A stretch of DNA of 64,000 nucleotides from Herbidospora yilanensis. GTDB taxonomy: Bacteria > Actinomycetota > Actinomycetes > Streptosporangiales > Streptosporangiaceae. The stretch's first letter is position 1, and every line of letters starts with the position of its first letter. A program made the position numbers and the translations under genes. Positions 19,020 to 63,955 of the stretch are shown piece after piece. The stretch lies in contig NZ_BBXE01000024.1 of the NCBI RefSeq assembly GCF_001570565.1, positions 68,653 through 132,652 of the forward strand, given 5' to 3'. Under the pieces are notes generated by a model. The model searched no databases. It saw only the letters and a list, made by a program, of their open reading frames with translations, and had not been told where the DNA came from.

Positions 19020-19032
19020 AAGCGAACTTCCG

Positions 19033-19249: not shown

Positions 19250-19250
19250 G

Positions 19251-45328: not shown

Positions 45329-45500
45329 GCGGTCAGCCTAGGGAAGTCGGGCGGCGGTCTCCCCGGTCAGGTCGGCCACCAACGGCGCCGGCGACTCGCC
45401 GGGCGTTCAGGGCCGTCATAACCGGATCGTAAGCGTCGTGCAAGGCGATTCGGAGATGGTAATACCACAAACCGCGAAAACCCCCCGAAGGGAACCAGCC

Positions 45501-45989
45501 GTGCGCCTCCTTGGCGGCCTCGTCGCAGCTCTCGCAATCGTCCTCGTCCCCTCCGCCCCCGCCTTCGCCGACAACCCCCCGGTCGCCTCCAAGACCGGCC
45601 TCGCCCAGCAGGCCCCCGCCAAGAAGTTCGAGCGCTACAGCTCGGGCAAGCGGGCCTACACCAAGGGCTCCCTCTCCGGGGTGATCACCAACCCCGGCGC
45701 CGTCATCGAGAACGCCGACATCAAGGTCAGCGGCAAGATCGGCGACCTGACCAAGGGCTCGGCCTGCGGTTACGCGGTCTTCCGCATCACCTACCAGAAG
45801 GGCGGCAACCAGCCCTTCACCCACAAGACGTTCCGCGACTGCACCTACCGGACGCCGGCGTCCTACAGCTTCACCTACAAGAACGCCACCCTGGTCGAGC
45901 TCAAGGTCTGCTCCGAGGCCAAGCACACGAAGGTGTCCGACCAGTGCCTCTACGGCGGTGTGTGGAAAGTCGTCTACGCCACGATATGA
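45501..45989 (+). CDS. Small secreted protein of unknown function
   Basis: GTG 45501 follows GAAGGGAACC and gives a clean signal peptide (VRLLGGLVAALAIVLVPSAP, cleavage after AFA); 162 aa. An upstream in-frame start at 45438 would add a charged extension and is less likely. Four cysteines in the mature part (SACGYA, DCTYRT, VCSEAK, QCLYGG) suggest two disulfides in a beta-sandwich. It overlaps the convergent operon end at 45974. Confidence 0.72.
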   Translation: MRLLGGLVAALAIVLVPSAPAFADNPPVASKTGLAQQAPAKKFERYSSGKRAYTKGSLSGVITNPGAVIENADIKVSGKIGDLTKGSACGYAVFRITYQKGGNQPFTHKTFRDCTYRTPASYSFTYKNATLVELKVCSEAKHTKVSDQCLYGGVWKVVYATI

Positions 45990-47818
45990 CCCGTTGACCC
46001 AGGGCCCGGTGGGGTGGGGAGGAGGTGGTCGAACCTCAGCCCGCTGGACGCCTCGCCCGAGCCGGCCGCCCGTGTCGCCGCGAGCCAGAGCAGCACCCGT
46101 CCCTCCTGCCACCGGGTGCGCTGGTAGGCCAGCGACACACGGGTGCCGGCTCTCGGCACCTCCTCCTCGAACAGGTGGTAGGGGGCGGCCGGCGCCTGGT
46201 CGAGGCCGACCCGCAGGAGCGTGGTGCGCGGGCGGATCCGGGCGCCGGGTGGTGCGCCCTCCATCGTGCGGATCATCGCGCCTCGTTGGAGCTGGGTCTC
46301 CCGTACGTCGCCGGGTACGTGCACGACGACGAACGGGATCCAGTTCTCCGGCACCGTGGTCATGGTCCGATAGGAGATCGGGGCCGCGGCGTCGCCGGTG
46401 ATCGGGCCGTCCGGGGGCAGGCCGGCGAGTCGTCTCCGGTGGGCGAGGCTCTCCTCGGCGGCTTCCGACCCCCGCTTGCCCGCCCCGGAGGCGAGCGGTA
46501 TCACGCGTTCCACCGCCCACACGAGGTTGGCGACCTCGTCGCGCATGAAGACGACCTCTTCCAGTTGCGGCCCGTCGATCGACTGCGCCAGCGCCGGGGG
46601 CAGGAACAACGACAGGTCGGCCGGTTCGGCGCCGGTCCCGGCCACGTCCAGCGTGAACATCGACCAGCGCCGCCAGTCGTCGTCGGCGCCCCGGCCGGCC
46701 GGCTCGATCCACAACCGCTCGCCGAAGACATTGGTCACGGCGAGGCCGGCCACCGTGGCCAGGGTTCCGGTCGTCATCTCGTACGGGATCGTGAACCAGT
46801 CGCCGCCGTAGGCGAGCGCGAACTCCAGGTAGAGGAGGCCGGCCACGTCGGTGGTCTTCACGCCGACATCGCCGAGGTTGGTCTGCCCGTCCTCGAAGGC
46901 CCACCAGCGTCTGTCCGGCATGCCGGTGAAGCGGGTCGCCGTCGGGAGGGTGGTCGACGCTTCGGCGAGGGGGCCTGCGGCGCGGCCGCCCGCGGGGTCG
47001 ACGGAGAAGGCGGTCCAGTCGAGCCGGCCGCCCGGGTATTCCTCGGCGACGAGGCGTTTGGCGCCGTCCGCGACGTTCATGGTCACCGCGAACCGGTGTT
47101 CCAGATGGGCCGGGTCCCAGGCGGGCTCGGATTCGGGACGCTCGATCATCGCCTCGAACCAGCCGACCAGTTCCAGGCCGGCCGCCACGATGGCCGGTTT
47201 GTCGGCGTCCGCCACCGGGATGCCGGGAAGCGGGGTGTTCGACGGGCTCGCGACCAGATGCCGGTAGAGCAGGTAGCCGTCCATCGCTCGGCCGGCCAGC
47301 GACTGGAGCAGCGCGTACACCTCCAGATGGGCGACGCGTTCGGTGTCGGCGTCGTCGTCGGCGCCGGGCACCGTGAAGGCGTAGCGGGAGATGAAGGCCT
47401 GCCGGTAGACCGGCGGGATCAGCTTGAGGAAACGGCGCCCGAGCATCATTCGCAGGTCGAGGGCGCCCAGCCCGCCGGCCGTGAGGTGGTCGATCGGGCG
47501 GCGCTCGGCCACCGTCTCCAGCGGCCGGCTCGCGTCGTAGGCGGCCGGGGCCGCGTCCCGGGCCTGGAACGTCGCCGGTGCGGCCTGCGCCACCTGCACC
47601 TTGGCCAGCACCGGAGACCCGGCGTCGTCGCCGTGGAACTCGCCCAGTTGCCACTGGCGGGTCAGCATCCACAACCCGTCGCGGATCTCGGCGCGGAGCG
47701 CACGATCGAAGTCGGGCGAGCGCGGGCGGCCCTCGACCCGGTTCCAGAGCGTCACCGACGGCCGCTGCCGCTCGGCGAGCACGGCGCGCAGGTTCTGGAT
47801 CAGCAGGGGATTAGGCAT
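45974..47818 (-). CDS. Unrecognised 614-aa protein, last gene of the seven-gene operon
   Basis: ATG 47818 overlaps the stop of the 1818-aa gene by 8 bp. I do not recognise a domain. Features: LRAEIRDGLWMLTRQWQLGE near residue 45, a helical central part, and a beta-rich C-terminus with NWIPFVVVHVPGDVRETQLQ, PYHLFEEEVPRAGTRVSLAY and TRWQEGRVLLWLA. No signal peptide or membrane helix is present. The opening (NRVEGRPRSPDFDRALRAEI) is the most distinctive stretch for a database search. It probably works with the two larger proteins encoded directly upstream. Confidence 0.65.
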   Translation of the reverse strand: MPNPLLIQNLRAVLAERQRPSVTLWNRVEGRPRSPDFDRALRAEIRDGLWMLTRQWQLGEFHGDDAGSPVLAKVQVAQAAPATFQARDAAPAAYDASRPLETVAERRPIDHLTAGGLGALDLRMMLGRRFLKLIPPVYRQAFISRYAFTVPGADDDADTERVAHLEVYALLQSLAGRAMDGYLLYRHLVASPSNTPLPGIPVADADKPAIVAAGLELVGWFEAMIERPESEPAWDPAHLEHRFAVTMNVADGAKRLVAEEYPGGRLDWTAFSVDPAGGRAAGPLAEASTTLPTATRFTGMPDRRWWAFEDGQTNLGDVGVKTTDVAGLLYLEFALAYGGDWFTIPYEMTTGTLATVAGLAVTNVFGERLWIEPAGRGADDDWRRWSMFTLDVAGTGAEPADLSLFLPPALAQSIDGPQLEEVVFMRDEVANLVWAVERVIPLASGAGKRGSEAAEESLAHRRRLAGLPPDGPITGDAAAPISYRTMTTVPENWIPFVVVHVPGDVRETQLQRGAMIRTMEGAPPGARIRPRTTLLRVGLDQAPAAPYHLFEEEVPRAGTRVSLAYQRTRWQEGRVLLWLAATRAAGSGEASSGLRFDHLLPTPPGPGSTGHIVA

Positions 47819-50800
47819 GGTCGGCTCGCATGATCCGGTAGAGGTCGTTGTTGACGGCGAGGTTGGCGGAGATGCCGAGGCCGCGCTCCGTCGCCTCGGA
47901 CAGGGTGGCCGGGAGGAAGGCGGCGTACGCGGTCTGCGCGATGGCGTCCGGTTCGAGGGCGCGCTGGCGTGCCAGGTCGAAGGTGTCCTCCAGGGCGGCG
48001 ACGAGGTCGTCCCAGCGCCAGCCCGCGCTCGCGTCGGGTGGCACGACGAGCAACATCGCCTGCGGGGGTTCGGAGTCGGGGCTGTCGTGGTGGAACACGA
48101 TGCCGGTGGTGGCCGTGTCGTCGGGCACGACCTCGACCCATTCGTCCAGCAGCAGCCCTGCCTGCGGCGCCGTCGGATCGAACGCGGCCGGATAGTGGGC
48201 GGTGTAGAGCAGGCGATCGCCGGTGACGGAGGTGCCGGGGGGCCATTCGAGCGCCAGCCAGGGCTCGGTGGCGTGCGGGAACTGGACCGGAGTCAGCTCC
48301 GGCTCGGGCCGGCCGAACGCGCCCGCCAGCAGGGTCGCCTCCTCCCACGCGCGCATCGGTCCGCGCACGCGGGCGACGCCGTGCAGCCAGTCGTCGACGG
48401 GGAACGACCGCGACGCCAGCCCCGCCAGCAGCCCGCCCGTACGGCTCCACTGCAACGCCGCGTCCCATTCGGCGGCCAGGGATTCGGGGAGGGCGAACTC
48501 CGGCACGAAGACCGCGTCGGCGCCGAGCAGCGCGGTCACGGCCGCCGTCAGCGCGTCGACCTTCGACCGGCCCGTCGTGGCGAGGTCGTGGGCGGCGAGG
48601 TGGCCCGCCGCGGCCTCGCCCCGCGCCGTCGCCTGCGTGATCATGAGGCTGAGCGCGGCCGACGCGTCCCGGCAGAGCGCGCGCGCCCGGTCGGCGAACC
48701 CGCCGACGGGAAAGGGCTCGGCGTCGAAGTCGTCCACCGGGAGCAGCGCGGAGATCATCTCCAGCGCGTCGGCCAGGCCGGTGGCCACGCCGGCGACCGC
48801 CTCGAACCCGGCCAGCCGGTCGGCGAAGGACGCCCGCTGCGTCTCGATCGCCGCGCGGAACGGCCCGGGGTCGGTGGGCACCGGTTTGGTCGGGCTGCCG
48901 CGGAGCTCACGGTCGGCCCGGAGCAGCACGGCGACGCGTTCGGCGTCGGTGGCCGGGGGCGGCAGCGCGTCGTCATGGGCGAGCGCGTCGTCGGCGCGCG
49001 CCAGCCGGGCCCGCCAGCGTCCGGTCAGGGCGGCCACGGCACCCAGGAGGTCGCCGAAGAGGCCGGCCCGGGCCGCGTCGAGCTGGGCCGCTCCTCCGCT
49101 CGGCAGGCCGAACCGGCCTGATTCGACCAGGGCGGCGCCCGCCTGAGCCACCAGATCGTCGACATCCGGGGGCGCCGGGTTCTCCACCGCCGCGTCGATC
49201 GCGGCGCGAAGGGCCGCCAGTTCGTCGAGATGGCCGTCGAGTTCGGCCGCGACGGCCGCGACGCGATCCCGGTCGGCCTGCACCAGTGTGTCCGCGGCCG
49301 CGCGGGCCTCGCCGGTGCGGAGCACGTCGGTGGCCCGCAGGGGCCTGCTCGTGGTCACCAGAGAGCGGAGGTGAGCGACGTGCGGGGCGATCTCGAAGAA
49401 GGTCGCCTTCCCCGGCACCCGTTCGGTCAGATGGACGATCGGGGTCACGTCGGGCCGCAGCCCCGCAGCGGCGGCCACGTGCCGGAGGATGCGCTCGTCG
49501 AGTTCGCCGAGCGCGGCCCGCGACTCCAGCCGGACGAGATACAGCAGGTCGATCGGCTGAAGTCCGAGGTCGGCCTGGCTGACGAGCAGATCCCGCGCGG
49601 TGCCGTCGTGGCCGGTCCAGCGGACCCGGGCCACCACCTCGGCGGGTGGCGGCAACATCGCCGCGGCCAGCTCGTTGACTCCCGGCTCCGCCATCGCCCG
49701 CGGCGTCATCGCGACCCCGCCGACCGGGGACGAGGTGTGGTCGAGCCCGGTCCGCAGGTGCACCGCCACCCGGTGCGTCAGCGTACCGCCCCGCCCGGGG
49801 GTCTCCAGGATCGCGGGGTCGGACGGGAAGCCGCCGCGTCCGATCGTGTCCAGCGACGACGCCGTACGGTCGGCGTTGCCGAGCACCGACTGGTGCACGC
49901 TCTCGGCCAGCACCAGGTCGCCGATCGCGTCGTGCACGTCCAGCAGGCGCTCCACCTCCAGATCGATGGCCTGCCGCTGCGCCGCCGAGGCCGCCGGGAG
50001 GTCGGTGCGCCCGAACGGGTAGGAGGACAGGCCCGATTCGCGCACGTGCCGGACCAGCTCCAGGCCGTCGACGCCCATCCGGCCGTCCCGATCGCCGGTC
50101 AGCGGGAACGCCTGCCGCAGCGGATGGATGACCACGTCCACCTCGGCCAGCGTGTGCCGGTCGTGCAGCCCGCGCTCGAACCGGTGGCCGAGCAGGCCCC
50201 CCAGCGGTTGTCCTTCGCGCAGGCCCCGGAGCACCGACATCGCCAGCCGCATGCGCCCCGAGCTGAGATTGAGCGCCAACGTGTCGGGATGGTCGGGGGT
50301 GGCGTTGGCCATGAAGCCGCTGCGCAGGATCGCCGCGGTCGCGGCGTGGTTCAGCGACGGGGCGTGCACGAACCCGCCGTTGGCGCTGTCCCGCACCAGA
50401 GGGGACCCGTGGTCGAACGCGGGTTTGAGCTCGTCCGGGAGCTCCACCGGTTTGAGCTCCCGTGGTTCCGGGCGTACGTCGTGCAGCCAGCCGTAGGCGC
50501 CGACGTGGATGCCGCGCCGCGGCTCCGGGCGTACGCCGTCGATTCCGTCGCCGGGGGTCAGGCCGCGCATGTCGAGCAGGCGGCGGGTGGCCAGGCCGAG
50601 CCGCCAGGCGTCGACCCGGTGACCGGCACAGTCGAGGTGTTCGGCCAGGAGCCGTTCGAGCCGGGCGGTCGGCAGACCGGACAACGCCTTGATCGCGTCC
50701 ATGACCTGCCGGAGCCGGCTGACGGCCGCTTTGTCGAACAGGTCGGGGATGGTCTCGTGCAGTGGGCGGAACGGGTCGCCGGTGATGCCGGGCGCTTCGT

Positions 50801-53267
50801 CGTAGAGGGCGCTCCACCGGCTCTCGGTGCCCTGGCCGGTGGCGACGTGCACGAACGGTGGTTCCCGCCGGGCCGCGAGCAGCTCCGCGGGGGTGATCTC
50901 GCCGGATTCGAGCCGGAGCCGGATGGCCGCGTCCCACCACGACAACAACACGGCGTGGCGGAGCAGGACGTAGAGCAGGGCGTTCGGTTCCTGGCCGCCG
51001 GAGAATCCGGTCTCCTGCCGCAGCTCCTCCAGCTTGGAGCGGCCGGCGTCGCCGAGCCACCGCAGGTAGTCGCGCCCGTCGTCGCAGTAGGCCCGGATCG
51101 GAGCCTCCTCCGACAGCGGCCGGTCATCGATGACCGGCCCTTTCAGTCTGTGTTGAGCGGTGTGGAAGAGTTTGCGAAGGATGTCGGGGGTGTCGTCGCC
51201 GCGGTACCCGAGCCCGGCCAGCAACTGGCGGCCGGTGGCGACGTGGCCGAGCGCGTTCCAGACGTCGAGGAAGTCCCGGCCGAGGTTGTCGAATCGGAAC
51301 CGGTTGAACAGGTCGCTGACCGATTCGGCGTAGCGTTGGTGGAACTCCACCGAGGCCGGGTGGAGCGCCACGACGTCCAGCAGCGTCTGGTGCGGGTCGC
51401 CGGTGGCGGCGTGCGCGTGCGGGACCGCGTCGATGATCTTGGCCAGGTCGGCGGTCAGGACGGCGAGCAGATCCCCGAGCGTGGTCAGCGTCGCCAGGTC
51501 GGCCGCGTCTCGCGGATCTCCCGGGCCGCCGGTGCCGAATCGCAACCGCGCGTACGCGGTGGCGGGCACGATCCCATAGGGCTGCCGGCCCAGGCGCAGC
51601 GCCGGGATCCGCCCTCTGCCGCTGACGTGGCCGAGGAAGAAGTTCCGCGTGTGCGTCACGGCGTCGTCGCCGAACAGCGGCCACATCATCGACTCGAGGA
51701 AGTAGCCCCAGGTGGCCGGCCACAGGGCGGTGTTCATCGCGAGCGACTCCGCCTGATCGCCGCCGGCGGCCCCGGCGACGGCGCCGAAGACCGCGGGATC
51801 GACGCCGAGACACTCCGCCAGCCACTGGCCGTCCTGCTTGGCCGCCCACCGCGGCTCGTCCACCAGCCGCGATCCGGTGCCCAGGTAGCGGTCGTAGCTG
51901 AGGTCGGGGTCGTCGAGCCGGCTGAACCCGGAGGGAACACCCTCGGTGTTGTTGGTCGGAGTGCCCTGGGCCGGGATCGACATCCCGGACCGGCTGCGAT
52001 GGTGATGGGTGAGCAGCTCCTCCAGGTCCTTCTGGTCGTCGCCGGGGCCGGCGCCCGCCCGGATCCCGACCGCGAAGAGCCGGTCGAACCCGTTCTCCAT
52101 GCGGGGTTCCAGCGGCACCCGCATGGCCATGCCCACGCCGACCGCCGCGTCGAAGTCGACCATCCAGCGCAGGTCGTCGGGCATCACCAGCTCGCCGTTC
52201 TCGATCCGGAACTGGTCACCGGGACCGGCCGACGGATCGGGGCCGACCGCCAGGGCCGGCGGGATGGGTTCGCCGGTGAACTCCAGCACGGTCTGTCCGG
52301 ACTCGCGGCCGATCAGCACGATCCGGTCCGGCAGCAGCCCGGCGCGTGAGGCCAGGGTCCAGGCGGAGAGCTTGGTGTCGGCGGGCGAAGGCAGCTCGCA
52401 GAAAACGACCGTGACCTGCGCCTGCTCCGGATCGACGCCCTCGGGCCGTTCCTCGAACGCGTGCGGCGGCAGGCCGAGCACGGTGTCGGCCCGCGCGTCA
52501 CCCACCGCGCCGCGCAGTTCGGCCGCGAAGGCGCCGCCGGGGTCGCCGTTCGCCCGCCACACCAGCTCCCAGTACCGCGCGGCGGCGTCGCGCTCCGCGG
52601 CGGTGAGCGTCAGGTCGCCGGCGACGACCAGGATCACCTCGTCGGGCGAGGTCCGTACCGGCTCGGCGGTGGGGGTCAGCGGGGCGAACCGGTCGACGAC
52701 CCAGCCGGCGCGGCCGCTGCCGCACGCGGCCACCAGGGCCCGCCACGCGGCCCGGCGCATGCCCTCGTCGCCCCCGGCCCGGAAGACCCCGGCCCAGAAC
52801 CGGGTCGCGTTGACCACCTCGGTGTCGCTGAGCCGCTCTTCGAAGCCGTCGACCGCCCACTGGTCCGGATAGATCCGCACCCACAGTTCCGTGGGGGTGA
52901 ACCGGGTCTCGATCCGCAGCGGCATCAGCAACAGCGGCGTCCCGCCGTCGAGGCCGGTGACGGCGTCGCGGGGGTCGGACACCTCGGCGAAACCCCGCAG
53001 CTCCTCGGCGAGGCCCGCCTCCACCCGGCGGAGCGCCTCCCGCAGCCTGGCCAGCCTCGTCTCGGCGGCGGCGATGTCGTCGCCGAGCCCGGCCAGTGGT
53101 CGCGGCGGCCCGGAGAGCCTGGGGTCGGTCCGGCGGGCCTCGGCGTCGCGGGCGCGCCGCAGGCGGGTCAGCCGGGCGTCGGCGTCGGCGATGCCGGTGC
53201 GCAGACCGGCGGCCTCCGCGGCGAGTGCGCGTACGCGGCGGTGGCGGGAGTGGATGTCAGACGTCAC
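47811..53267 (-). CDS. Very large (1818-aa) unrecognised protein
   Basis: GTG 53267 overlaps the upstream gene by 11 bp. Residues 1-95 are a charged coiled-coil (LRTGIADADARLTRLRRARD, ETRLARLREALRRVEAGLAE). Next come LLLMPLRIETRFTPTELWVR and IYPDQWAVDGFEERLSDTEV, which by memory recur in large hypothetical proteins of scattered bacteria and archaea. The rest alternates helical blocks and beta segments and ends with YPAAFDPTAPQAGLLLDEWV. There are no transmembrane helices, signal peptide, nucleotide-binding loop or protease motif that I can see. A structural or scaffold role is the natural reading for its size; this is inference. Confidence 0.65.
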   Translation of the reverse strand: MTSDIHSRHRRVRALAAEAAGLRTGIADADARLTRLRRARDAEARRTDPRLSGPPRPLAGLGDDIAAAETRLARLREALRRVEAGLAEELRGFAEVSDPRDAVTGLDGGTPLLLMPLRIETRFTPTELWVRIYPDQWAVDGFEERLSDTEVVNATRFWAGVFRAGGDEGMRRAAWRALVAACGSGRAGWVVDRFAPLTPTAEPVRTSPDEVILVVAGDLTLTAAERDAAARYWELVWRANGDPGGAFAAELRGAVGDARADTVLGLPPHAFEERPEGVDPEQAQVTVVFCELPSPADTKLSAWTLASRAGLLPDRIVLIGRESGQTVLEFTGEPIPPALAVGPDPSAGPGDQFRIENGELVMPDDLRWMVDFDAAVGVGMAMRVPLEPRMENGFDRLFAVGIRAGAGPGDDQKDLEELLTHHHRSRSGMSIPAQGTPTNNTEGVPSGFSRLDDPDLSYDRYLGTGSRLVDEPRWAAKQDGQWLAECLGVDPAVFGAVAGAAGGDQAESLAMNTALWPATWGYFLESMMWPLFGDDAVTHTRNFFLGHVSGRGRIPALRLGRQPYGIVPATAYARLRFGTGGPGDPRDAADLATLTTLGDLLAVLTADLAKIIDAVPHAHAATGDPHQTLLDVVALHPASVEFHQRYAESVSDLFNRFRFDNLGRDFLDVWNALGHVATGRQLLAGLGYRGDDTPDILRKLFHTAQHRLKGPVIDDRPLSEEAPIRAYCDDGRDYLRWLGDAGRSKLEELRQETGFSGGQEPNALLYVLLRHAVLLSWWDAAIRLRLESGEITPAELLAARREPPFVHVATGQGTESRWSALYDEAPGITGDPFRPLHETIPDLFDKAAVSRLRQVMDAIKALSGLPTARLERLLAEHLDCAGHRVDAWRLGLATRRLLDMRGLTPGDGIDGVRPEPRRGIHVGAYGWLHDVRPEPRELKPVELPDELKPAFDHGSPLVRDSANGGFVHAPSLNHAATAAILRSGFMANATPDHPDTLALNLSSGRMRLAMSVLRGLREGQPLGGLLGHRFERGLHDRHTLAEVDVVIHPLRQAFPLTGDRDGRMGVDGLELVRHVRESGLSSYPFGRTDLPAASAAQRQAIDLEVERLLDVHDAIGDLVLAESVHQSVLGNADRTASSLDTIGRGGFPSDPAILETPGRGGTLTHRVAVHLRTGLDHTSSPVGGVAMTPRAMAEPGVNELAAAMLPPPAEVVARVRWTGHDGTARDLLVSQADLGLQPIDLLYLVRLESRAALGELDERILRHVAAAAGLRPDVTPIVHLTERVPGKATFFEIAPHVAHLRSLVTTSRPLRATDVLRTGEARAAADTLVQADRDRVAAVAAELDGHLDELAALRAAIDAAVENPAPPDVDDLVAQAGAALVESGRFGLPSGGAAQLDAARAGLFGDLLGAVAALTGRWRARLARADDALAHDDALPPPATDAERVAVLLRADRELRGSPTKPVPTDPGPFRAAIETQRASFADRLAGFEAVAGVATGLADALEMISALLPVDDFDAEPFPVGGFADRARALCRDASAALSLMITQATARGEAAAGHLAAHDLATTGRSKVDALTAAVTALLGADAVFVPEFALPESLAAEWDAALQWSRTGGLLAGLASRSFPVDDWLHGVARVRGPMRAWEEATLLAGAFGRPEPELTPVQFPHATEPWLALEWPPGTSVTGDRLLYTAHYPAAFDPTAPQAGLLLDEWVEVVPDDTATTGIVFHHDSPDSEPPQAMLLVVPPDASAGWRWDDLVAALEDTFDLARQRALEPDAIAQTAYAAFLPATLSEATERGLGISANLAVNNDLYRIMRADHA

Positions 53268-56200: not shown

Positions 56201-56316
56201 ACCGTCAGGTCGACGCCGACGCGGGCCCGGGTCGTCCCGCCGGGAGCGGCGGACATCAGGGTGGCCACCCCCCGCCGCAACCACGGCAGGAAGGAGTAGG
56301 TGCCGATGTCGGTCAT
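53257..56316 (-). CDS. Unrecognised 1019-aa protein of the operon
   Basis: The ATG at 56316 overlaps the upstream stop (ATGA). No known domain is recognised. Distinctive stretches are RPWLALVVLAEDEFTE, WAWAHVHVNGGLG, RLLCPRRLSQDTVYHAFVMP and SFESGRLAGLGLD in the N-terminal half. The C-terminal half has NHEMARELLWREYPTDQRGS, CFRQFWDP and a final AYILYQAPVLVAVHAGELL. No signal peptide or membrane segment is present. It is probably soluble and co-assembles with the neighbouring large proteins, judging from strict coupling only. Confidence 0.65.
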   Translation of the reverse strand: MTDIGTYSFLPWLRRGVATLMSAAPGGTTRARVGVDLTVTGRTAGGGTISAPVHRDVELYGPGDVTGLDSRSIVRTEPWPGITDFEPNHLPFVEFYDEDLPWRYTPAPPDGSKRLRPWLALVVLAEDEFTEGAAGDRPAPFVIVPDPGVFPSADESWAWAHVHVNGGLGAAGTVLSDDMSAVLPRLDTVVGADPDHGLARLLCPRRLSQDTVYHAFVMPSFESGRLAGLGLDPDASPTATHSSWGDYPGRAEPAAHCYYHRWTFRTGTVGDFEYLVRLLKPRRMDPRVGRRDMDVRAPLPGLPGIDVPGLGGLLRLGGALRIPEINLDPTAREEAERYENWDVPFPHPFQTALADFIELSDDYATGDAADPDPVVTPPLYGRWHARTSRLLEASEPELTGNWVHELNLDPRFRVAAGFGTAIVQDNQETYLAAAWQQIGEVLEANRRIRLGQLTREVAGGLYHRHLAAQTAADPGRVLAITGPAHPRIVHDGVTVAHGLAASVAGKGPLTPAMRRISRPGSAVVRALARYGDPPRRLLAAIAGQRATAARPKAAPPGVPTSAKLVAGLDHHRDRASVQLARDDRKPELVADLPRCGGFTVTEPGREVPDLEPTSSDSPDGIRIKDAVEGNAEVIRASAEAGAEPARPGIDVGELAQSVLDLLDPEVTVPRQVLSGISLPGRMGVTGLREVLAYPEIDVPMYRPLAGKSSELFLPNLTLIPPDSITLLETDQRFIEAYMVGLNHEMARELLWREYPTDQRGSCFRQFWDPTHQLPVPGESAAHRRERLRDIPPLHTWALTSPLGGHDPRDQDDGPAAEEVVLVIRGELLRRYPTAVIYAQRAKWRRAQDGTIDPSAERELDDLTLAEQQNPPPAKLRAPLFGAKIEPDITFLGFDLTAAEALGQDPAEPDADPGWFFVLRERPGEPRFGLDVERTGDLNVWNDLAWDDVAPGLPFIPVGPAAPVHHLTEPVGPDAEKHDQWADDRFLHWGADLNSSEVAYILYQAPVLVAVHAGELLGDV

Positions 56317-59300
56317 GCGCTCGCCGCCTCGTAGGTGGGGATGACGTGGATCAGGCCGGCCTGGTTCGGGTTGCCGGCGACCCGGTCGTTCAGCCAATCC
56401 CGCGCCGCCGACTCGCTTCCGAAGACCTGCGAGGTGGCGCGGTTGTCGACCGTGGAGGCGACCACGAATCCGGCCTCCGCGACCCGCACACCGTCCTGGT
56501 GGGGATCGAGCAGCCGGCCGGAGGCGGCCGAGACCGGCGAGCCGGCGATGCTCGCACCCGCGACGAAATGGCCGAACAAGCCGCCGGCGATCGGCTGGAA
56601 CCGGCGCCGCCGGCGACGGAACCGGTCGTCGACGACGACCTCCTCGAATCGCACGGCCCGCTGGACCATGCGGGCGGACTGGGCGCCCGCACCGGTCGGC
56701 ACCACCTCGATCCCCGCACGCTGCCGCTCGAAGGAGGCGCGGGAGAGTTTGGCCGCGTCGTCCATCTCCTGGAACTGCGCCATGGCGAACGGTTCGGTGA
56801 CGTCGGCGCGCTTGCGCAACGCGGCGCCCTGAACCGTGATCGCGAAGCGGGTCGCGTCGGCTGCCCGTCTGGCGCCGACCTTGGTGATGCCGATGTCGAG
56901 TGGCACGGCTCGCTGCCGAATCTCCAGGGAGCCGACCGGGTGCAGCACCAGCGACCCCGGTCCCGAGTCGGGCAGGTCGCGCAGCGACACGAACAGATGG
57001 GCGCCCGGCGAGAGCGCCCGCCACGACTCGGGTTTCTCCAGCTCGGCCCGGAGCATCGGCAACACGTTCACCGGATCCAGCTCGGTGTGCTTCGGCTCAC
57101 CCCAGGTCTCGTCGAACTCGGCCGACACCGTGAAGAAGAAGAACGAGATCGAGCCGTGGCCGCGGGCCCGCCACGGCGACGTGCCCTCCAGCGCGAACTG
57201 CAGGTGGATGCCGAAGACGCCGACGCCGAAGACCTTGAGCGACACCGACGCGGAGATGTCGACGACGAAGTGGAACGGCGAGAACCGGAACAGCGCGTCG
57301 AACCCGACGTGCCCCTGGATGCTGATCGCGCTGAACTTGAAGAACAACTCCGCCGCCGCGCCGAACTGCACCGTGTTGGCGGTGACGGCGAAGTAGTTGG
57401 TGATCCGGATCCGGCCCCAGTCCTCGTCGAGGATGCCGACCGTGATCCGCCTGGGCACCGGGAACGGCAGCGGAGGCGGGTCGAAGGCGGGGTGGAAGCC
57501 GCCGACGCTGACCACGAACTCGGGCTCCTCGCCCCAGGCGACCAGCAGGCCCATCTCTCCGGTGACGGACATGAACAGGATCCGGGAGTCGTACAGGGAG
57601 GCGAAGAAGTAGACCCGCTTGCGGTCGAACTCGACCGCGCCCGCGAAGTTGACCTGAAGCCGGATCAGCGGCTCGTCGGGGGTGGGCAGCACCACCTTCA
57701 GCACGCCGACGACGGCGATGTTGCCGGGGATCTCGACGATCACCCCGACCGAGGCCGTGATCAGCGCCGGGCTGCCCCAGCCGATCCTGACCATCGGACC
57801 GACCAGGAAGGTGTCCCGTTTGGCCGGGAAGAAGGCGCGCAGGTCGCTGAGGATGCGCGGCGCGTTGGCCACGACGTCGCGGGGGAACATCACCCGCTCC
57901 ACCGAGCCGGTGCGCACGCCCTCCATCAGCGCCCGCAGGTTCATCGTCCGGCCGATGCCGAGGAGCCCGCCGACGCCCAGCAGCACGAAGCCGAAACCGA
58001 GCTGGACCCCGCCGGGGAACTCGGCGGTGATGACGATCAGCATCGAGAACCCGGGGGAGCCGTCCGGGTTGCGGGTGGTGATCAGGCCGATCGCCGACAC
58101 CGTCAGGAAGTCGGCGATGACGAACTCCAGGGCGCCCGCGTAGTCGCCGCGCTCGGCGTCGACGTACAGGTAGCCGCCGCCCTTGACGACGCCGACGTCG
58201 AGCGAGAGGCCGACGCCGGTGGGCGGCTTGAACCCGAATTCGAGGTCGAACGGGCCCAGGTTGCCGTCGTGACCGGGCGGGAGCCCGAGGAGGGCGCGGG
58301 CGCCGAGGTTCTCGATGACCGCGCGGAGCGGCCCGAGGGAGGCCGTGATCGTGGCCGTCAGGTCGATCGGGAACCCGGCCGGTTCGATGCCCGCCCGGAC
58401 CGCGAGGGCGTCGATCTCGATCGGGCCGAGCTGGATGTGCGTCGGTATCCGTACGTCGAGCCCGCCGCTGCCGGTGAAGAACACCCCCGATCCGGCCCGC
58501 CAGCCGAACCCGAGGTCGAAGCCGGCCTCCAGGGCGAAGCCCGACATGACGCCGGCGACGAACCCGTCGGCCCCGGCGAGCGAGATGACCAGCCGGCCGC
58601 CCTCGACGGCGCCTTCGATTCCGACGTCGCCGGTGGCCCGTCCGGCGGCGACGTCCCACGCGAAGGAGGTGGTGAGGCGGATCCTGATCCGCTTCGCGCT
58701 GAGCTCCGTCCCACCGGCGACGCCCAGCAGGACTACCCTGTCCCGGCCCGGCGCGGGCACCCTGTCGAGCCCGGCCGAGAGTGTGCCCTGCACCGTGCCC
58801 TGGGGCGGGATCACCGAGACGTCGGCCGGTGGCTGGATCCGGATGCCGGTCGAGGCCTGGATCTCCCCGCCGGCGCCGAGGGCGAGGACGAAACCGCCGC
58901 CGACGGGCACCGTCAGATCGATCCCGTCGGCCAGCCCCGTCTTGGCGATGAGGTCGAGGCCGGGTGGGGTGACGGAGGGCTCGGTGGGGATCAGCGCCGC
59001 GAGGAAGAACTCGATGAACGGGCGCTCGGGCGGCCCGGGGTCGACGCCTGCGGCGACCGGCACACCGAGGAAGGTCAGCAGCTCGTAGAGCAGGTCGATG
59101 AGGGCGGCGCCGTCGAACTGCGGGGTGCCCCAGCCGAACAGCGAGCCGAACGCCGTCTCGGGTGAGGAGAAGAACACGCCGATCCTGGCGAAGTCGACGA
59201 CGCGTACCCTCGTCTCCGGCAGCGCCGGCTCGGTGGAACCGGCGTTCACGACCGTGGTGCCGAGGACACCGAGCCCGGTCAGCACGCCGGAGAGGATCGG

Positions 59301-59732
59301 CCGGCCGTCGATCAGGTAGCGGGCGACGACGCGATCGAGCAGGCGCTTGGGCAACTCGCGGGCGAACTGTTCCACGCTGCCGGCGAGTTCGCCGAGGTCG
59401 AGGTCACCGATCTCGTCGGCGATCGTGTCGAACGACCTGATCACGGCGGTCACCTCGACGACGAGCGGGGCGGCCTTCGCGGCCAGTTCGAGCGCGCCGG
59501 CGTCGGCCTCGACGGCCTCGGCCAGTTCGCCGACCAGGCCGGGCAGTTCCTGCGCCGAGGCCGCGCAGGCCGCGATGGCGCTGCGCAGCCGCGGCGACAC
59601 CAGATCGGGAGGGATCCACAGGCCGAGATCGGTGAGCACGCCCAGCGGGTCGTCGGCGAACTCGGCGCCGAGATCGGCGAGGGCCGAGCCGAGCATCAGC
59701 GCCAGGCGTTCCGCGGTGCCGGGATCAGCCAC
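56313..59732 (-). CDS. 1139-aa beta-repeat protein resembling DUF6603
   Basis: GTG 59732 overlaps the oxidase stop by 8 bp. Residues 1-150 are helical (LMLGSALADLGAEFADDPLG). From about 250 to 900 the protein is a long run of amphipathic strands with glycine turns (GGFVLALGAGGEIQASTGIR, GYLYVDAERGDYAGALEFVI, GGVQLGFGFVLLGVGGLLGI), resembling DUF6603 from memory. Such elongated beta proteins can be surface fibres or hydrophobic grooves. The Arg-rich DDRFRRRRRRFQPIAGGLFG lies near the C-terminus. No signal peptide. The family call needs a profile search (PF20248, number from memory). Confidence 0.6.
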   Translation of the reverse strand: MADPGTAERLALMLGSALADLGAEFADDPLGVLTDLGLWIPPDLVSPRLRSAIAACAASAQELPGLVGELAEAVEADAGALELAAKAAPLVVEVTAVIRSFDTIADEIGDLDLGELAGSVEQFARELPKRLLDRVVARYLIDGRPILSGVLTGLGVLGTTVVNAGSTEPALPETRVRVVDFARIGVFFSSPETAFGSLFGWGTPQFDGAALIDLLYELLTFLGVPVAAGVDPGPPERPFIEFFLAALIPTEPSVTPPGLDLIAKTGLADGIDLTVPVGGGFVLALGAGGEIQASTGIRIQPPADVSVIPPQGTVQGTLSAGLDRVPAPGRDRVVLLGVAGGTELSAKRIRIRLTTSFAWDVAAGRATGDVGIEGAVEGGRLVISLAGADGFVAGVMSGFALEAGFDLGFGWRAGSGVFFTGSGGLDVRIPTHIQLGPIEIDALAVRAGIEPAGFPIDLTATITASLGPLRAVIENLGARALLGLPPGHDGNLGPFDLEFGFKPPTGVGLSLDVGVVKGGGYLYVDAERGDYAGALEFVIADFLTVSAIGLITTRNPDGSPGFSMLIVITAEFPGGVQLGFGFVLLGVGGLLGIGRTMNLRALMEGVRTGSVERVMFPRDVVANAPRILSDLRAFFPAKRDTFLVGPMVRIGWGSPALITASVGVIVEIPGNIAVVGVLKVVLPTPDEPLIRLQVNFAGAVEFDRKRVYFFASLYDSRILFMSVTGEMGLLVAWGEEPEFVVSVGGFHPAFDPPPLPFPVPRRITVGILDEDWGRIRITNYFAVTANTVQFGAAAELFFKFSAISIQGHVGFDALFRFSPFHFVVDISASVSLKVFGVGVFGIHLQFALEGTSPWRARGHGSISFFFFTVSAEFDETWGEPKHTELDPVNVLPMLRAELEKPESWRALSPGAHLFVSLRDLPDSGPGSLVLHPVGSLEIRQRAVPLDIGITKVGARRAADATRFAITVQGAALRKRADVTEPFAMAQFQEMDDAAKLSRASFERQRAGIEVVPTGAGAQSARMVQRAVRFEEVVVDDRFRRRRRRFQPIAGGLFGHFVAGASIAGSPVSAASGRLLDPHQDGVRVAEAGFVVASTVDNRATSQVFGSESAARDWLNDRVAGNPNQAGLIHVIPTYEAASA

Positions 59733-62055
59733 GGTCGCTCCCTTCGCCGGCCTGGTTCGGGGCGAACGGCGGCAACGGCGGCGGCGCCTCGGTCGGCACC
59801 GAGGGTGAACGCAGCGGAGGCGCCCCGGTGATCATGATGAAGCGGGCCTCCACGCAGGGCAGCGCCCCGTCGAGAATCCACAACATGTAGTAGCCGGGTG
59901 GCACCAGCGAGCTGTCGGCGCCGGGCACCATCGTGACCTTCAGGGAGGTGGTGCCGCTGGTGGTGAACGGCAGCTCGATGAACCGCTGCTCGGTGTCGGT
60001 GTGGTGGGTGACCGCGGCCGGGCGCATGATCGCCACCCGGGTGATCCGGGCCGCGTCGGGGGTCCGGACCGTGAACGTCGAACCGTACCGGACCATGACT
60101 TCGCCCGGTTTCAGTGGCGGGAGCACCGGCCGGGTGCCGGGCTTGAAGAAGTAGGGCGGCTGGTAGATCTCGTAGTCCTTGCGGTTGAGCGGCGTCGAGA
60201 AGTCGAAGCGCTCGCTCCGCGGCGGGGTCACGCTTGACAACCACTCGTTGACTCGGGGGATCGGGGCGCCCGTGGACCCCGGCTCGAAGTCGACGCGGGT
60301 CCCGGCGGCGATGCCGCGGGGAAGCGGGGTGGCGATCCGGAGGTAGCGCAACACCGACGTGGCCGGCACCGGTTCGAGCATGACGAGGGTGGTCCTGATC
60401 TCGTTGGGGCCGCGATCGATGATCACTGTCGTCTGGGGCGGGAGGGACGCGAAGGGCAGGGGGTAGACCGGTGTGCGCATGTCCACCTCAAGAACAGTGG
60501 CATGGGCGGGTGCCGGGGCCAGCAGGCGTGATGTGCCGGGGTAGACCCGCCCGTTGAAGGAGGACGGAAAGCGGAGCGAGGGTTCGTGCTCGTTGGGATC
60601 GGCGCCACCGGCGACGATCACAGAGCCGTCGGGGAGCAGCATCGCGATCGAGTGGTACATCCGCGGGTGACGCATCGGCGCCCCGAGGTGGAACCCTCCG
60701 CCCGGCGTGAAGATCTCCACCTCCAGCGTCGGCGTGGTCTTGGGCACGCCCTTCGCGTCGGCCTCCGTACTGTTCGCCTTGGCATGCCACTTGTACGCGT
60801 CGTGGCCGCCCAGGATGAGCACGGTGGCGTCCGGGAGCAGCACGCAGTGACAGTTGATCCGCGGCGGGCGGTTCAACCCCGGCACCGCCGACCACCGGGG
60901 CGACCGGAAGATGGAGGTGTCGAGGATCTCGACCGGCTGCCGGGTGGTGATGCTCTGCCTGCGGAAGGCCAGTGGCCCGAGCCCGCGGGCCCGGGTGATC
61001 GTCCACGGCGGGACCGGGGTGGCGATGGGACGGCGCACCAGCGACGCGCCGGTGGCGTCGACGGCCTTTCCGCCGCCCACCACGAGGAACTTGCCGACCG
61101 ACGTGGGATCGCGCTGCTTGGTCGCCGGATTGAGCACCACCGGCAGCATCACGCTCATGCCCTCCTCCCGCTCGGGCTGGGTGGCCCTGGCGGTCGGCAG
61201 CACGTACTCGGTCCAGGCCCCGGTGAGGGTGCCGCCCGCCGGCCGGACGGTCAGCGACAGGGTCGGCGGCACGTGGGGCGGCGGCTCGTCGATCTCCTGG
61301 CCCCACGTGGTGTGGGTGGTGTAGAGCCGGTCGTCGGGGGCGAGGTGGATGCCCGGGTAGATGGGAATCATGCGGTCGGCGCCGGTCACCGCCTTCGGCT
61401 GGTAGTCCGGCGGCTTGAGGTGCTCGACGACCTGGGCGATGCCGCGGTTGGTGACCCATTCGGCCAGCTTGGGCACCGGCCACCCGGCCGGCGCGGGCCG
61501 GAAGTCCGCCTCCTCGCGTCGGCCCGAGATCACGAGCACGCTGCCGTCGCCGAGCACGACCGCCGTCGGATACCAGCGGCCCTGGAGCAGCTTGGGCCCC
61601 GAGGCGGGCTTCACCCACTCGCCGCCCTTCTTCCCCATGCGCGGATCGAAGATGTGGATCGTGGAGGATCCGGCGCTGCCCCGGTAGTCGGTCCGGGGGT
61701 TGAACGTTCCACCGGTGACGAAGTGGTCGAGCTGGGAACCGCCGACCACCAGGATCCTGCCGTCCTGCAGTTGCACGCAGAAGCAGCAGAACAGATCCGC
61801 GCCGTTGAGGAACGGCTTGCGGACCGCTGGCGCGCCCGGATTGCGGGGATCGAACACGTACGCCTCAAGCGGATAGTCGAGGTATTCCGCGTGCCCGCAG
61901 AACCAGAGCACCTTCCCGGTGTGCAGGAGCACCGCGTGGATGACGAACAGACCACGATCGTCGGGGACCGGATTCTGCCCGTTCTTGTCGCGCAGCACGC
62001 CCGGCAGGTGCGGCACGGGCCGGGGCGGCGACCAGGCGCCCTTGTCCGCCGACAT
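59725..62055 (-). CDS. Galactose-oxidase/glyoxal-oxidase-like copper radical oxidase
   Basis: ATG 62055 shares one base with the upstream stop (TGATG); 776 aa. Kelch beta-propeller repeats (DGRILVVGG, DGSVLVISG, DATVLILGG, DGSVIVAGG) are followed by a C-terminal DUF1929-type domain. The catalytic set is complete by alignment to galactose oxidase: C90 (DLFCCF, cross-link partner), Y162 (GRWYPT), Y467-H468 (PRMYHSI) and H685 (THHTDTEQRF). Such enzymes oxidise alcohols or aldehydes to give H2O2, using one copper and a Cys-Tyr radical. Unusually, no Sec or Tat signal peptide precedes the propeller. The two upstream genes encode putative copper-handling proteins. Confidence 0.85.
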   Translation of the reverse strand: MSADKGAWSPPRPVPHLPGVLRDKNGQNPVPDDRGLFVIHAVLLHTGKVLWFCGHAEYLDYPLEAYVFDPRNPGAPAVRKPFLNGADLFCCFCVQLQDGRILVVGGSQLDHFVTGGTFNPRTDYRGSAGSSTIHIFDPRMGKKGGEWVKPASGPKLLQGRWYPTAVVLGDGSVLVISGRREEADFRPAPAGWPVPKLAEWVTNRGIAQVVEHLKPPDYQPKAVTGADRMIPIYPGIHLAPDDRLYTTHTTWGQEIDEPPPHVPPTLSLTVRPAGGTLTGAWTEYVLPTARATQPEREEGMSVMLPVVLNPATKQRDPTSVGKFLVVGGGKAVDATGASLVRRPIATPVPPWTITRARGLGPLAFRRQSITTRQPVEILDTSIFRSPRWSAVPGLNRPPRINCHCVLLPDATVLILGGHDAYKWHAKANSTEADAKGVPKTTPTLEVEIFTPGGGFHLGAPMRHPRMYHSIAMLLPDGSVIVAGGADPNEHEPSLRFPSSFNGRVYPGTSRLLAPAPAHATVLEVDMRTPVYPLPFASLPPQTTVIIDRGPNEIRTTLVMLEPVPATSVLRYLRIATPLPRGIAAGTRVDFEPGSTGAPIPRVNEWLSSVTPPRSERFDFSTPLNRKDYEIYQPPYFFKPGTRPVLPPLKPGEVMVRYGSTFTVRTPDAARITRVAIMRPAAVTHHTDTEQRFIELPFTTSGTTSLKVTMVPGADSSLVPPGYYMLWILDGALPCVEARFIMITGAPPLRSPSVPTEAPPPLPPFAPNQAGEGSDRG

Positions 62056-62810
62056 CAGTGACCTCCATGTCCGGCGGCACCGGTGAGGTGCGCCACGCCG
62101 ATCGCGACCGCCGCGACGATCATCACGACACCCGTGACCCGTGCCAGCGAGGCGCCCCACGGCGCGTGCTTGTGCAGCGCCGCCACGCCGCCCAGCGCGA
62201 TCATCAACACCGGGTTCGCCATCCCGGCCGCGAACATCACCACCATCAGCCCCGCACAGCAGCCCAGGCAGTAGAGCCCGTGGTCGAGGCCGATCAGAGC
62301 CGCCTCCGTGTGCGGCCGACGTCCCGCCCAGCGCCGGGCGAGGATCCCGAACGGCGTGCGGCAGGCGGTCAGGCACCGGGCCGCCGTACCGGAGAGCTGG
62401 TAGGCCCCGGCGACCAGCAGGGAGAGGGACGGCACCGCCCACACGTAGGGGGTGCCGGCGACGACCGCGCGCACGAGGGCGTCGAGCGCGGCGAACGCGA
62501 GCCCGGCCACCGCCCAGGTGGCCAGGTAGCCGGCGACCACGGTGGCGATCAGCCGGTCGGCGTCGCGCCGGTGGGCGAGCATCCGGGCGAACGCCCGCAG
62601 CAGCGGCAACGAGGTGGGCAGCATGGTGGCGACCGTCATCAGCGACCAGCTCAGGGTGAACCAGCCGACCCCCGCCCAGCCCGCGGCGAGGTCGTGTTCG
62701 AGCAGCGACCGCGCCGGGGAGAGCTGCCACGCCAGCAGCCCGGCCGTCCCGGCCACCGCGACGGCCGCGATCGCGATCGTGGTGCGTGAGCTCGCCGCCG
62801 GGCCGGTCAC
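62055..62810 (-). CDS. DUF2182-like metal-binding integral membrane protein
   Basis: GTG 62810 overlaps the DUF1326-like stop by 4 bp; 251 aa with about six membrane helices. The DUF2182 signature is visible: GLYCLGCCAGLMVVMFAAGM, then LMIALGGVAALHKHAPWGAS, a CxGCC/LM helix plus a conserved Lys-His-x-Pro. Members are predicted metal-binding membrane proteins and often sit beside DUF1326. Here the pair directly precedes a copper enzyme, so copper uptake or loading is the likely role. Confidence 0.82.
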   Translation of the reverse strand: MTGPAASSRTTIAIAAVAVAGTAGLLAWQLSPARSLLEHDLAAGWAGVGWFTLSWSLMTVATMLPTSLPLLRAFARMLAHRRDADRLIATVVAGYLATWAVAGLAFAALDALVRAVVAGTPYVWAVPSLSLLVAGAYQLSGTAARCLTACRTPFGILARRWAGRRPHTEAALIGLDHGLYCLGCCAGLMVVMFAAGMANPVLMIALGGVAALHKHAPWGASLARVTGVVMIVAAVAIGVAHLTGAAGHGGH

Positions 62811-63430
62811 GGCTCACCCCGGCTCTCGTACCGGAACGGGCCGCGCATCGCCGCCCGGCCGGTCACCTGCACCGAGGCGGCCTGCCCGCCCAGGTCGACG
62901 CGGAAGGCCGAGGTGTTGCCCACTTCGGCGCGCGGGCCGAGCACCTCGCTGAGCCGCCCGCTGCGCAGTTCGGTGATCGCGCCGTCGCCGCCGCGCACGA
63001 CCGTTCCGGCACCGCTCACCATGCGCCCGACCGTGACCGAGAGGTGGTCGTCCTGGGTGGTGAGGCTGATCGGGGCGCGGCTCGCCTCACGCAGGGCTCC
63101 CATCAGGCGGCCGAGCTCGCCGAGCGGCCCGCCGTTGCCCCCGGTGAACGTCGTGGCGAGCGCGGCGAACTGGGCGTCGTCGGCGCCGTCGTCGACGAAG
63201 AGCGTGACCTCCTGCCCGCCGGTGTCACGATGCCCGGTGTGGAAGGAGACGCTCACCACCGATCGCCCGGAGACGTCGACGTCCCCGATCGTGCCGCTCT
63301 CGATCGACCAGCAGAACGCCCCCGTGCACCGGTTGTCGTCGGGGGAACGGCCGATCCAGCATGGGCAGATCGTGTAGCAGTCGCACAACTCGAAGAAGAA
63401 ACCGTCGAGCCGGTAGGCGGGCATGCTCAC
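62807..63430 (-). CDS. DUF1326-like cysteine-rich protein, first gene of the operon
   Basis: Starts at GTG 63430 or ATG 63424; 207 aa. The N-terminal FFFELCDCYTICPCWIGRSP carries the CxCxxxCPC cluster of DUF1326, followed by NRCTGAFCW, in all six cysteines suited to Cu(I) or Zn. The rest is a beta-rich domain (GDVDVSGRSVVSVSFHTGHR). DUF1326/DUF2182 pairs are known only as a conserved couple. With the copper radical oxidase following, a metallochaperone role is a reasonable inference. Confidence 0.8.
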   Translation of the reverse strand: MSMPAYRLDGFFFELCDCYTICPCWIGRSPDDNRCTGAFCWSIESGTIGDVDVSGRSVVSVSFHTGHRDTGGQEVTLFVDDGADDAQFAALATTFTGGNGGPLGELGRLMGALREASRAPISLTTQDDHLSVTVGRMVSGAGTVVRGGDGAITELRSGRLSEVLGPRAEVGNTSAFRVDLGGQAASVQVTGRAAMRGPFRYESRGEP

Positions 63431-63513
63431 GGGCGGTTCCGCGTCGCGCGATTCTTGGTGTGGTTGTGTCCGGCCACCGGGTGTTCTCGCGGGATTCCCG
63501 GCCGATCTTCCCC

Positions 63514-63617
63514 GTCACGTGTCACGTGACCCCCTGCTTTCCGGGCCGACCTCACTCGACCACTCAGAAAGGTTTCACGACTCCGCTGTCACGTAAAGCG
63601 AGAAATTCTGAGTGGTC
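63514..63617. promoter_or_regulatory. Repeats and inverted repeat upstream of the seven-gene operon
   Basis: GTCACGT occurs at 63514, 63521 and 63588; the second is part of the perfect palindrome GTCACGTGAC (63521-63530). A perfect 12-bp inverted repeat GACCACTCAGAA (63558-63569) / TTCTGAGTGGTC (63606-63617) encloses the third copy. They lie 84-190 bp before the operon start and are candidate regulator sites. The remainder of 63431-63955 holds no recognisable gene. Confidence 0.45.
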
Positions 63618-63955
63618 TTATGTGGCGACCGAAAACGAATGTCCGCAGCCCTCGCGAACGCCCGTCGTCTTTTTTCATGACCACGGCCCGGCGCGTTTCC
63701 ACTGGTCAGTCCACCCGGCGCTCGGCGAGAATCGACAGCGTGATCGCGCCTGACGATAAGGAAGGTGTAAAGGGCTTCTATCGCTACAAAAAGTGAGAAA
63801 ACGTCGACCTGTATCCTTTTTGTGACCAAATGTCAAATAAGGGGAAGCGTCCTCGCCGCTCTTTCGCGGGGAGCCACGTCTCGCCTTGCAAGCGTTCTGC
63901 AGGCGCCTCGGTGCATAAGGGAGGGCAACACCCACGCCCTTCTGGAGCACCACCG

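Follow-up and report, generated by a model that had tools for sequence, protein, structure and literature searches.

A conserved unit of four large proteins with an exchangeable enzyme gene and a probable cargo-specific adaptor in Herbidospora yilanensis

We analyzed a 64,000-nucleotide stretch of the Herbidospora yilanensis genome (contig NZ_BBXE01000024.1, our contig C24, positions 68,653 to 132,652 of the forward strand; hereafter the window), in which seven minus-strand genes lie across positions 45974 to 63430. The last four encode a DUF6603 protein and three proteins of 1019, 1818 and 614 amino acids (aa), here called p1019, p1818 and p614. We find that DUF6603-p1019-p1818-p614 is a constant unit, that the gene before DUF6603 encodes an exchangeable enzyme (the cargo), and that the cargo is replaced along with the first ~490 residues of DUF6603, while the remainder of the protein stays. 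We consider it highly probable that the locus is a cassette with a cargo-specific adaptor; the fuller statement, that it is a modular carrier for one leaderless enzyme, delivery included, we regard as evenly poised.

Conservation of the four-gene core

The four core genes make up 13.8 kb of DNA in the window. The DUF6603 protein (1139 aa, positions 56313 to 59732) matches Pfam PF20248 over residues 432 to 993 (E = 1.4e-124; 416.9 bits against a cutoff of 27), and it is followed by p1019 (53257 to 56316), p1818 (47811 to 53267) and p614 (45974 to 47818), three core proteins without known family, for which we found no Pfam family at E <= 1 and nothing above the NCBIfam cutoffs, with one insignificant match for p614. 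Their alignments comprise 44 sequences for p1019 (A7, 34 to 83% identity to the p1019 of the window), 34 for p1818 (A8, 27 to 81%) and 52 for p614 (A5, 32 to 87%). The 7.85-Mb genome of the window contains a single p614 match.

A p1019 profile was scanned over 84,980 genomes, one per species (the DUF6603 profile, A1, is too loose for a genome scan). The scan matched 296 stretches, 284 of which encode a relative, and the best 80 of these 284 were kept as loci L032 to L111. The gene-neighborhood survey proposed in the initial annotation of the window was thus carried out, with 71 of the 80 loci containing DUF6603, p1019, p1818 and p614 in that order on one strand (L103, where the DUF6603 assignment was wrong, is not counted among the 71); eight of the remaining nine are cut by contig ends, and L058 is not. 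The hosts belong to ten phyla, with Actinomycetota contributing 42 loci, followed by Bacteroidota (14), Pseudomonadota (9), Chloroflexota (5), Cyanobacteriota (4), Bacillota (2) and four phyla with one locus each. Because it recurs across phyla, the seven-gene set of the window is not a chance arrangement.

A similar picture of joint occurrence emerges from 396 evenly sampled genomes of the phylum, the window genome among them. We observe p1019 in 9, p614 in 10 and DUF6603 in 12 of these genomes, with p1019 and p614 together in 8 (chance probability 2.9e-14), all eight of which also encode DUF6603. One genome (G344) has DUF6603 and p1019 without a p614 match, two (G269 and G308) have p614 alone, on contigs of 3.2 and 4.9 kb, and three (G204, G246 and G261) have a divergent version of DUF6603 without p1019 or p614, with a weak p1019 profile match in one (L118). 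In one further locus (L023), p1818 and p614 are fused in a single open reading frame (ORF) of 2101 aa.

The core also extends to haloarchaea. Among 14 plasmid records with p614, four were inspected, three haloarchaeal and one from Streptomyces, and the haloarchaeal plasmids (L120, L121 and L122) carry all four core genes in the same order. Their p614 ends in a lamin tail domain (by Pfam in L120 and L121, by annotation in L122), and two of the three plasmids have a BGTF surface domain annotated in p1818, with Pfam, run on the p1818 of L120, finding no family; these domains hint at the cell surface.

No relatives of DUF6603 and p614 were found in viral contigs, and a phage origin of the core was rejected. 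The single match among phage records, MT835531.1 (L123), is an unverified human-fecal scaffold that holds a piece of DUF6603 and then relatives of p1019, p1818 and p614 in order, and it is most likely bacterial DNA in a mis-sorted scaffold.

Some DUF6603 loci depart from the arrangement in the window. A divergent second locus type (L116, L117 and L118, all from the window's phylum) encodes DUF6603 proteins of up to 3233 aa, with neighbors that look by eye like two halves of p1019 (profile match in L118 alone); a gene upstream in L116 weakly matches metallo-beta-lactamase. DUF6603 proteins of more than 1450 aa occur in 33 loci, all from actinomycetes (L039, L045 to L049 and L051 among the examples), and 34 loci have a separate gene of ~390 aa after DUF6603 that resembles the kelch gene of L048; Pfam, run on L048 alone, finds kelch repeats in both the long DUF6603 and the following kelch gene.

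The exchangeable cargo gene

In the 70 loci where 600 bp or more precede DUF6603, the gene in the upstream slot ends near the DUF6603 start and differs between genomes. Peptidases are the most frequent, with 21 trypsin-like, 15 M64 and 15 S8 subtilase loci, and the other classes are phospholipase D (PLD; 3), PhoD-like (3), galactose oxidase (2), tyrosinase (2), DUF2515 (2) and two unnamed families (3 and 2), leaving two loci unassigned (L050 and L069). Labels were given by tblastn to representatives, with Pfam run on the representatives; Pfam also confirmed the weakest M64 locus (L107, 96 bits) and the S8 assignment of L054, L061 and L062, and L080 is labeled trypsin-like on a weak serine-protease Pfam match below the cutoff. 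Plain active-site motifs were found for GDSG in all 20 loci then labeled trypsin-like and for HxK in 3 of 3 PLD loci; patterns for tyrosinase and PhoD also matched other ORFs and were not counted. In the longest upstream ORF of 67 loci, a hydrophobic stretch occurs in the first 60 residues in seven cases, none of which is a signal peptide by eye.

A LodA-family quinoprotein oxidase gene in L025 (7164 to 11066) was rejected as cargo, as it adjoins DUF6603 on the opposite strand, and the passages of PMC4417212 that concern LodA-like oxidases held nothing usable on this gene set.

Furthermore, we observe a domain of ~100 residues near the C terminus that is common to cargos of different classes, present in all 21 trypsin-like and 5 of 15 S8 loci (26 loci) and lying 20 to 45 residues from the C terminus of the upstream gene; in L067 and L074 it is in the gene before the one that adjoins DUF6603. 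Across the 26 loci, distances between these docking-like domains follow those between DUF6603 N-terminal parts (partial rank correlation 0.62, permutation P = 0.001) and do not follow those between the C-terminal parts (0.08, P = 0.135).

Exchange of cargo and the joint within DUF6603

We counted cargo changes as minimum numbers on trees, using ten cargo classes, for which shuffled labels give means of 40 to 42. The trees of the constant parts require 31 changes for p1019, 32 for p614, 31 for p1818 and 29 for residues 432 to 900 of DUF6603, and the tree of DUF6603 residues 1 to 400 requires 10, the possible minimum being 9 (both DUF6603 trees contain the same 68 proteins, with L092 left out for its split ORF). 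A count of 10 against a minimum of 9 leaves little room for cargo exchanged alone.

Closely related loci point in the same direction. For pairs with p1019 identity of at least 0.7, the 18 pairs with the same cargo have DUF6603 1-400 identities of 0.73 to 0.93, and the 9 pairs with different cargo have identities of 0.17 to 0.29, with mean identity over residues 520 to 900 being 94% and 88%, respectively. In 20 different-cargo pairs with p1019 identity of at least 65%, which are not independent of each other, identity breaks at a median DUF6603 position of 494.5 (range 462 to 517), where a strongly conserved stretch of the protein begins. DUF6603 can therefore be divided, by the residue 1-400 tree and this break, into a cargo-specific N-terminal part of ~490 residues (58263 to 59732) and a C-terminal part (56313 to 58262) that holds most of the PF20248 match, follows the core genes and is modeled by AlphaFold2 as an amphipathic beta-meander body.

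The clearest single case is a pair of loci from Nitrosomonas ureae (L041, tyrosinase cargo) and a Methylococcales metagenome-assembled genome (L108, trypsin-like cargo), whose DNA is 86% identical along a 13,044-bp stretch that starts within DUF6603 and ends shortly after p614. A further 377 bp ahead of the cargo genes are 85% identical, and the cargo genes themselves do not match. Since the flanks match and the cargo genes do not, the exchange happened in place. L075 and L080 likewise have flanks in common on both sides.

The window's copper oxidase and its copper-loading genes

On re-deriving ORF coordinates in the window, we recovered all seven coupled minus-strand genes that the initial annotation had listed with overlaps of 1 to 11 nucleotides; in order from DUF1326 to p614, the junctions overlap by 4, 1, 8, 4, 11 and 8 nucleotides. 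Pfam names families for four of the seven products (in these scans, p1019 was contained in a longer ORF, P0003, and the oxidase in P0005). Besides DUF6603, these are a DUF1326 protein (207 aa, 62807 to 63430; PF07040, E = 2.4e-36), a PpoB2/DUF2182 membrane copper chaperone (251 aa, 62055 to 62810; PF09948, E = 2.1e-47, 161.9 bits against a cutoff of 28.7) and a galactose-oxidase-like cargo enzyme (59725 to 62055; GO-like_E_set and Kelch_4 above the cutoff), which has 776 aa when counted from the ATG that overlaps the PpoB2 stop as TGATG. The family labels proposed for the first three genes are thereby backed by Pfam. A hydropathy scan bears out the clear membrane helices attributed to the PpoB2-like protein, and it also places scattered hydrophobic stretches in DUF6603 and one in p1818. 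As expected from the lack of visible Sec signals noted before, a simple hydropathy test finds Sec-like N termini in 0 of 52 p614, 0 of 44 p1019 and 0 of 34 p1818 sequences and in 1 of 39 DUF6603 sequences, this one being borderline.

The window oxidase carries the features of galactose-oxidase-like copper-radical oxidases, namely, the early-set domain, the Cys in DLFC, RWY and TH, and it aligns with PDB 4unm at DLFC, RWYPT and TH.TD..QR; the 4unm entry is titled "secreted protein", and we take it to be GlxA. A Tyr-His pair is read from RMYHS in the sequence, and we assume for this pair and for the other copper and radical motifs the roles that they have in such oxidases. Like Streptomyces GlxA-type oxidases, the protein has kelch and C-terminal early-set domains and conserved motifs; unlike GlxA, it has no visible signal peptide, sits in the cargo slot and scores 145.2 bits against the cutoff of 800 for the GlxA equivalog (NCBIfam NF052501). 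Judged from its sequence, the window cargo would be a leaderless copper-radical oxidase, with H2O2 and an aldehyde as its expected products.

In the initial annotation, the oxidase and the copper pair had been fixed members of one seven-gene system. We observe DUF1326/PpoB2 genes in 3 of the 80 loci and the oxidase in just 2, so the oxidase is rejected as an obligate part and the fixed set falls, while the four large proteins do stand as one conserved unit. Homologues of the large proteins regularly occur without the oxidase and the pair, an outcome that had been named as breaking the single-system idea; it does not dissolve the system but separates four core genes that stay constant from an exchangeable enzyme that comes with maturation genes of its own. 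The proposal that the first two genes belong with copper enzymes holds up well, with a DUF1326 or PpoB2 gene in 4 of 5 loci with a copper cargo (the window, L032, L034 and L040, the pair of L034 being on the other strand) and in 0 of 64 others (Fisher's exact test, P = 5.8e-6). Copper cargos thus mostly bring the copper-loading pair with them. A comparable case is the PpoB1-PpoB2 tyrosinase operon of Marinomonas mediterranea (PMC2855505), which likewise combines a copper oxidase gene with a PpoB2-family chaperone and in which PpoB2 is reported to transfer copper to the tyrosinase of its operon; the Marinomonas operon consists of enzyme and chaperone, whereas the window locus adds four giant proteins.

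Structure predictions and fold comparisons

The structure-based search recommended for the large proteins was run for p1019: given its confident AlphaFold2 model (pLDDT 83.8, pTM 0.69), Foldseek found nothing at E <= 0.001 among 350,542 PDB chains, nor in BFVD. The DUF6603 model (pLDDT 79.3, pTM 0.47) has a helical N terminus followed by a long run of strands. From residue 343, 30 of these show a strong amphipathic pattern, their alternation of hydrophobic and polar residues averaging 3.21, compared with 1.49 (maximum 2.20) for shuffles. Such alternation fits membrane barrels but also many soluble sheets, and in the model a membrane- or lipid-facing sheet is possible. For DUF6603, Foldseek ranks outer-membrane barrels, ushers and ApoB100 highest, with E values of about 1e-4 to 1e-2 and a TM score of about 0.14, at which we do not accept homology. 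By sequence, no solved relatives were found for DUF6603, p614 and p1019, and p1818 gave weak matches alone, the strongest (E = 0.003) being to a designed helical bundle. Common ancestry of p614, p1019 and p1818 was also rejected, with pairwise hhalign probabilities of 0.1, 8.7 (E = 0.0038) and 0.2%.

Other features of the window

A heavy-metal P-type ATPase with an HMA domain is encoded on the plus strand at 41750 to 43855, 2.1 kb past the operon's end; it possibly serves copper export, or perhaps is a mere neighbor. Promoter- and terminator-like sites in 45300 to 64000 do not exceed those in shuffled sequence, and Rfam finds nothing in 40000 to 64000. Farther away, an AT-richer minus-strand block of three genes (5178 to 10654) encodes an HNH protein, a DEAD helicase of 1169 aa that resembles PDC-M23B and HamB, and an unknown protein of 289 aa, and it is likely a defense island. 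Four clustered tRNA genes (Val, Gly, Cys and Gly) lie on the minus strand at 18945 to 19322.

Discussion

The tree counts and the break within DUF6603 show that the DUF6603 N terminus travels with its cognate leaderless enzyme, which it probably binds. We propose that this N-terminal part would act as a receptor for the enzyme, that the C-terminal beta body would dock onto a large complex of p1019, p1818 and p614, and that the loaded complex would carry the enzyme to its site of action. In the window, the cargo would be a copper-radical oxidase loaded with copper by the products of DUF1326, a putative partner in this step, and PpoB2. With less confidence, the complex may carry its enzyme out of the producing cell or into a different one. 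Peptidases, PLD, PhoD-like enzymes, tyrosinase and galactose oxidase are often secreted; because the cargo classes are of this kind and yet no signal peptides are seen, we favor a site of action beyond the cell, although delivery out of the cell as such is a tentative reading that we hold at slightly less than even weight. More doubtful, though a real possibility, is the picture in its strongest form: a so far undescribed delivery machine common to bacteria and haloarchaea, in which four giant proteins export or inject one plug-in leaderless enzyme, with DUF6603 as an adaptor having a membrane-inserting beta body, with no ATPase or tail parts of its own, and with the enzyme and the receptor half of the adaptor exchanged as one unit.

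In the open-license papers searched, we found no description of DUF6603, DUF1326, DUF2182 or the gene set, in agreement with the initial annotation, which knew of no described system of this composition. Type VI secretion, extracellular contractile injection systems (eCIS) and Tc toxins combine constant large components with an exchangeable effector and an effector-specific adaptor region. The cassette resembles them in its constant large components, its exchangeable enzyme and its cargo-specific adaptor region, and it differs from type VI secretion and eCIS in that no tube, sheath, spike or ATPase is seen among the seven genes of the window; for Tc toxins, a general Pfam scan gave no TcA, TcB or TcC match, no direct comparison having been made. 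The cassette acts somewhat like effector-delivery systems but shows no defining feature of those tested.

Several observations weigh against the carrier reading. The 80 loci were kept from the 284 by best score, so that the sample leans toward p1019s like that of the window; L058 has no DUF6603 in 10 kb of gap-free sequence before p1019; and the Streptomyces anthocyanicus plasmid NZ_CP109276.1 (L119) keeps just p614 and the C-terminal 67 residues of p1818, has IS5 transposases a few kilobases away, and looks like a remnant of the core. HExGH is found in 11 of 15 M64 loci and GTS in 5 of 13 loci then labeled S8 (L080 among the misses), so that some cargos may be inactive or the patterns too strict, and L041 has a tyrosinase cargo without the copper pair. 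Six same-cargo pairs with p1019 identities of 0.6 to 0.7 have N-part identities of 0.01 to 0.31 (one via a split ORF), and cargo class therefore does not fix the N-part type completely. In the 20 trypsin-like loci alone, the docking-like domain correlates with the N part at 0.73 but also with the C part at 0.33 (P = 0.001). In the structure model, the likeness of DUF6603 to beta-barrels is weak, with a pTM of 0.47 and a TM score of about 0.14. Finally, the cargo gene and the DUF6603 N-terminal part adjoin on the DNA, and their joint transfer could be plain linkage. On that account, recombination would merely fall in the conserved block at residues 462 to 517, without any physical pairing of cargo and DUF6603, as the position of the break at the start of a strongly conserved stretch would allow. 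We give this explanation little credence, since the pairing of cargo class and N-part type holds in different phyla (10 classes, 10 changes), and the docking-like domain follows the N part and not the C part in the 26 loci, if less cleanly in the trypsin-like loci alone.

Other explanations place the cassette elsewhere in the cell's biology. It might be an intracellular conflict or defense system, in which the core senses an invader and releases or activates the enzyme inside the cell, like other systems of several components whose effectors are exchangeable. Many of the hosts are multicellular, the distribution is patchy (p1019 in 9 of 396 genomes), the effector is exchangeable, with peptidases and PLD among its types, and the core lacks Sec-like N termini by the hydropathy test, all of which would suit such a role. 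Conflict systems mainly of multicellular prokaryotes were described in eLife in 2020 (PMC7159879), and the cassette is like these NTP-dependent systems in its variable effectors and patchy spread and unlike them in having no NTPase and different core families. None of the terms galactose oxidase, tyrosinase, kelch, giant, lacking NTPase and phospholipase D occurs in that paper. Pfam finds no NTPase family among the seven products, and at E <= 0.01 PADLOC matches none of p614, p1818, DUF6603, p1019 and the oxidase. Abortive effectors would also be an odd role for a galactose oxidase or a tyrosinase, and we judge defense unlikely. Still less likely, in our view, is a maturation or storage scaffold that keeps the enzyme inactive or aids its cytoplasmic maturation without transport. 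The lack of Sec-like N termini in the core, the maturation pair that goes with copper cargos and the docking-like domain of peptidase cargos would all fit; however, enzymes as unrelated as peptidases, PLD, PhoD-like proteins and copper oxidases would seem to share no maturation chemistry, and four proteins of 614 to 1818 aa, encoded by 13.8 kb of DNA, would be much for a chaperone.

The locus might instead serve as cargo or cargo loader for a contractile injection system (eCIS or type VI) whose genes lie elsewhere in the genome. The PF06841 tail-tube family is present in 21 of 33 picked core genomes, compared with 39 of 396 genomes in the window's phylum, although the 33 (6 of the 12 phylum-sample DUF6603 genomes and 27 of the 80 loci) were picked without matching for taxon or genome size; within the phylum sample, it is found in 5 of 12 DUF6603 genomes and 34 of 384 others (P = 0.003, genome size uncontrolled), and a T6SS Hcp gene lies 3.4 kb from the divergent DUF6603 locus L118. 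However, the window genome and 11 others of the 33 have no PF06841, and in the five phylum genomes with both, PF06841 is on a different contig or megabases away from DUF6603. In addition, p614, p1818, DUF6603 and p1019 have no PHROGs match, and p1019 has no fold match. This makes the involvement of such a system improbable. A contractile or phage origin of the core itself was rejected, as no tube, sheath or baseplate family was found by Pfam or PHROGs and p1019 matches no known fold; the oxidase does match phrog_16216, of unknown function.

If the proposed carrier is real, it would represent a modular system of a new type, present in ten bacterial phyla and in haloarchaea and built in part from p614, p1818 and p1019, which have no Pfam, PADLOC or PHROGs match and nothing above the NCBIfam cutoffs. 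Evolution has run about thirty enzyme exchanges in this system, revealing the position of the joint. Should the system export proteins, it would offer leaderless enzymes a new route. In many genomes, the cassette provides a context for hypothetical giant proteins that are found beside peptidases, phospholipases and copper oxidases.

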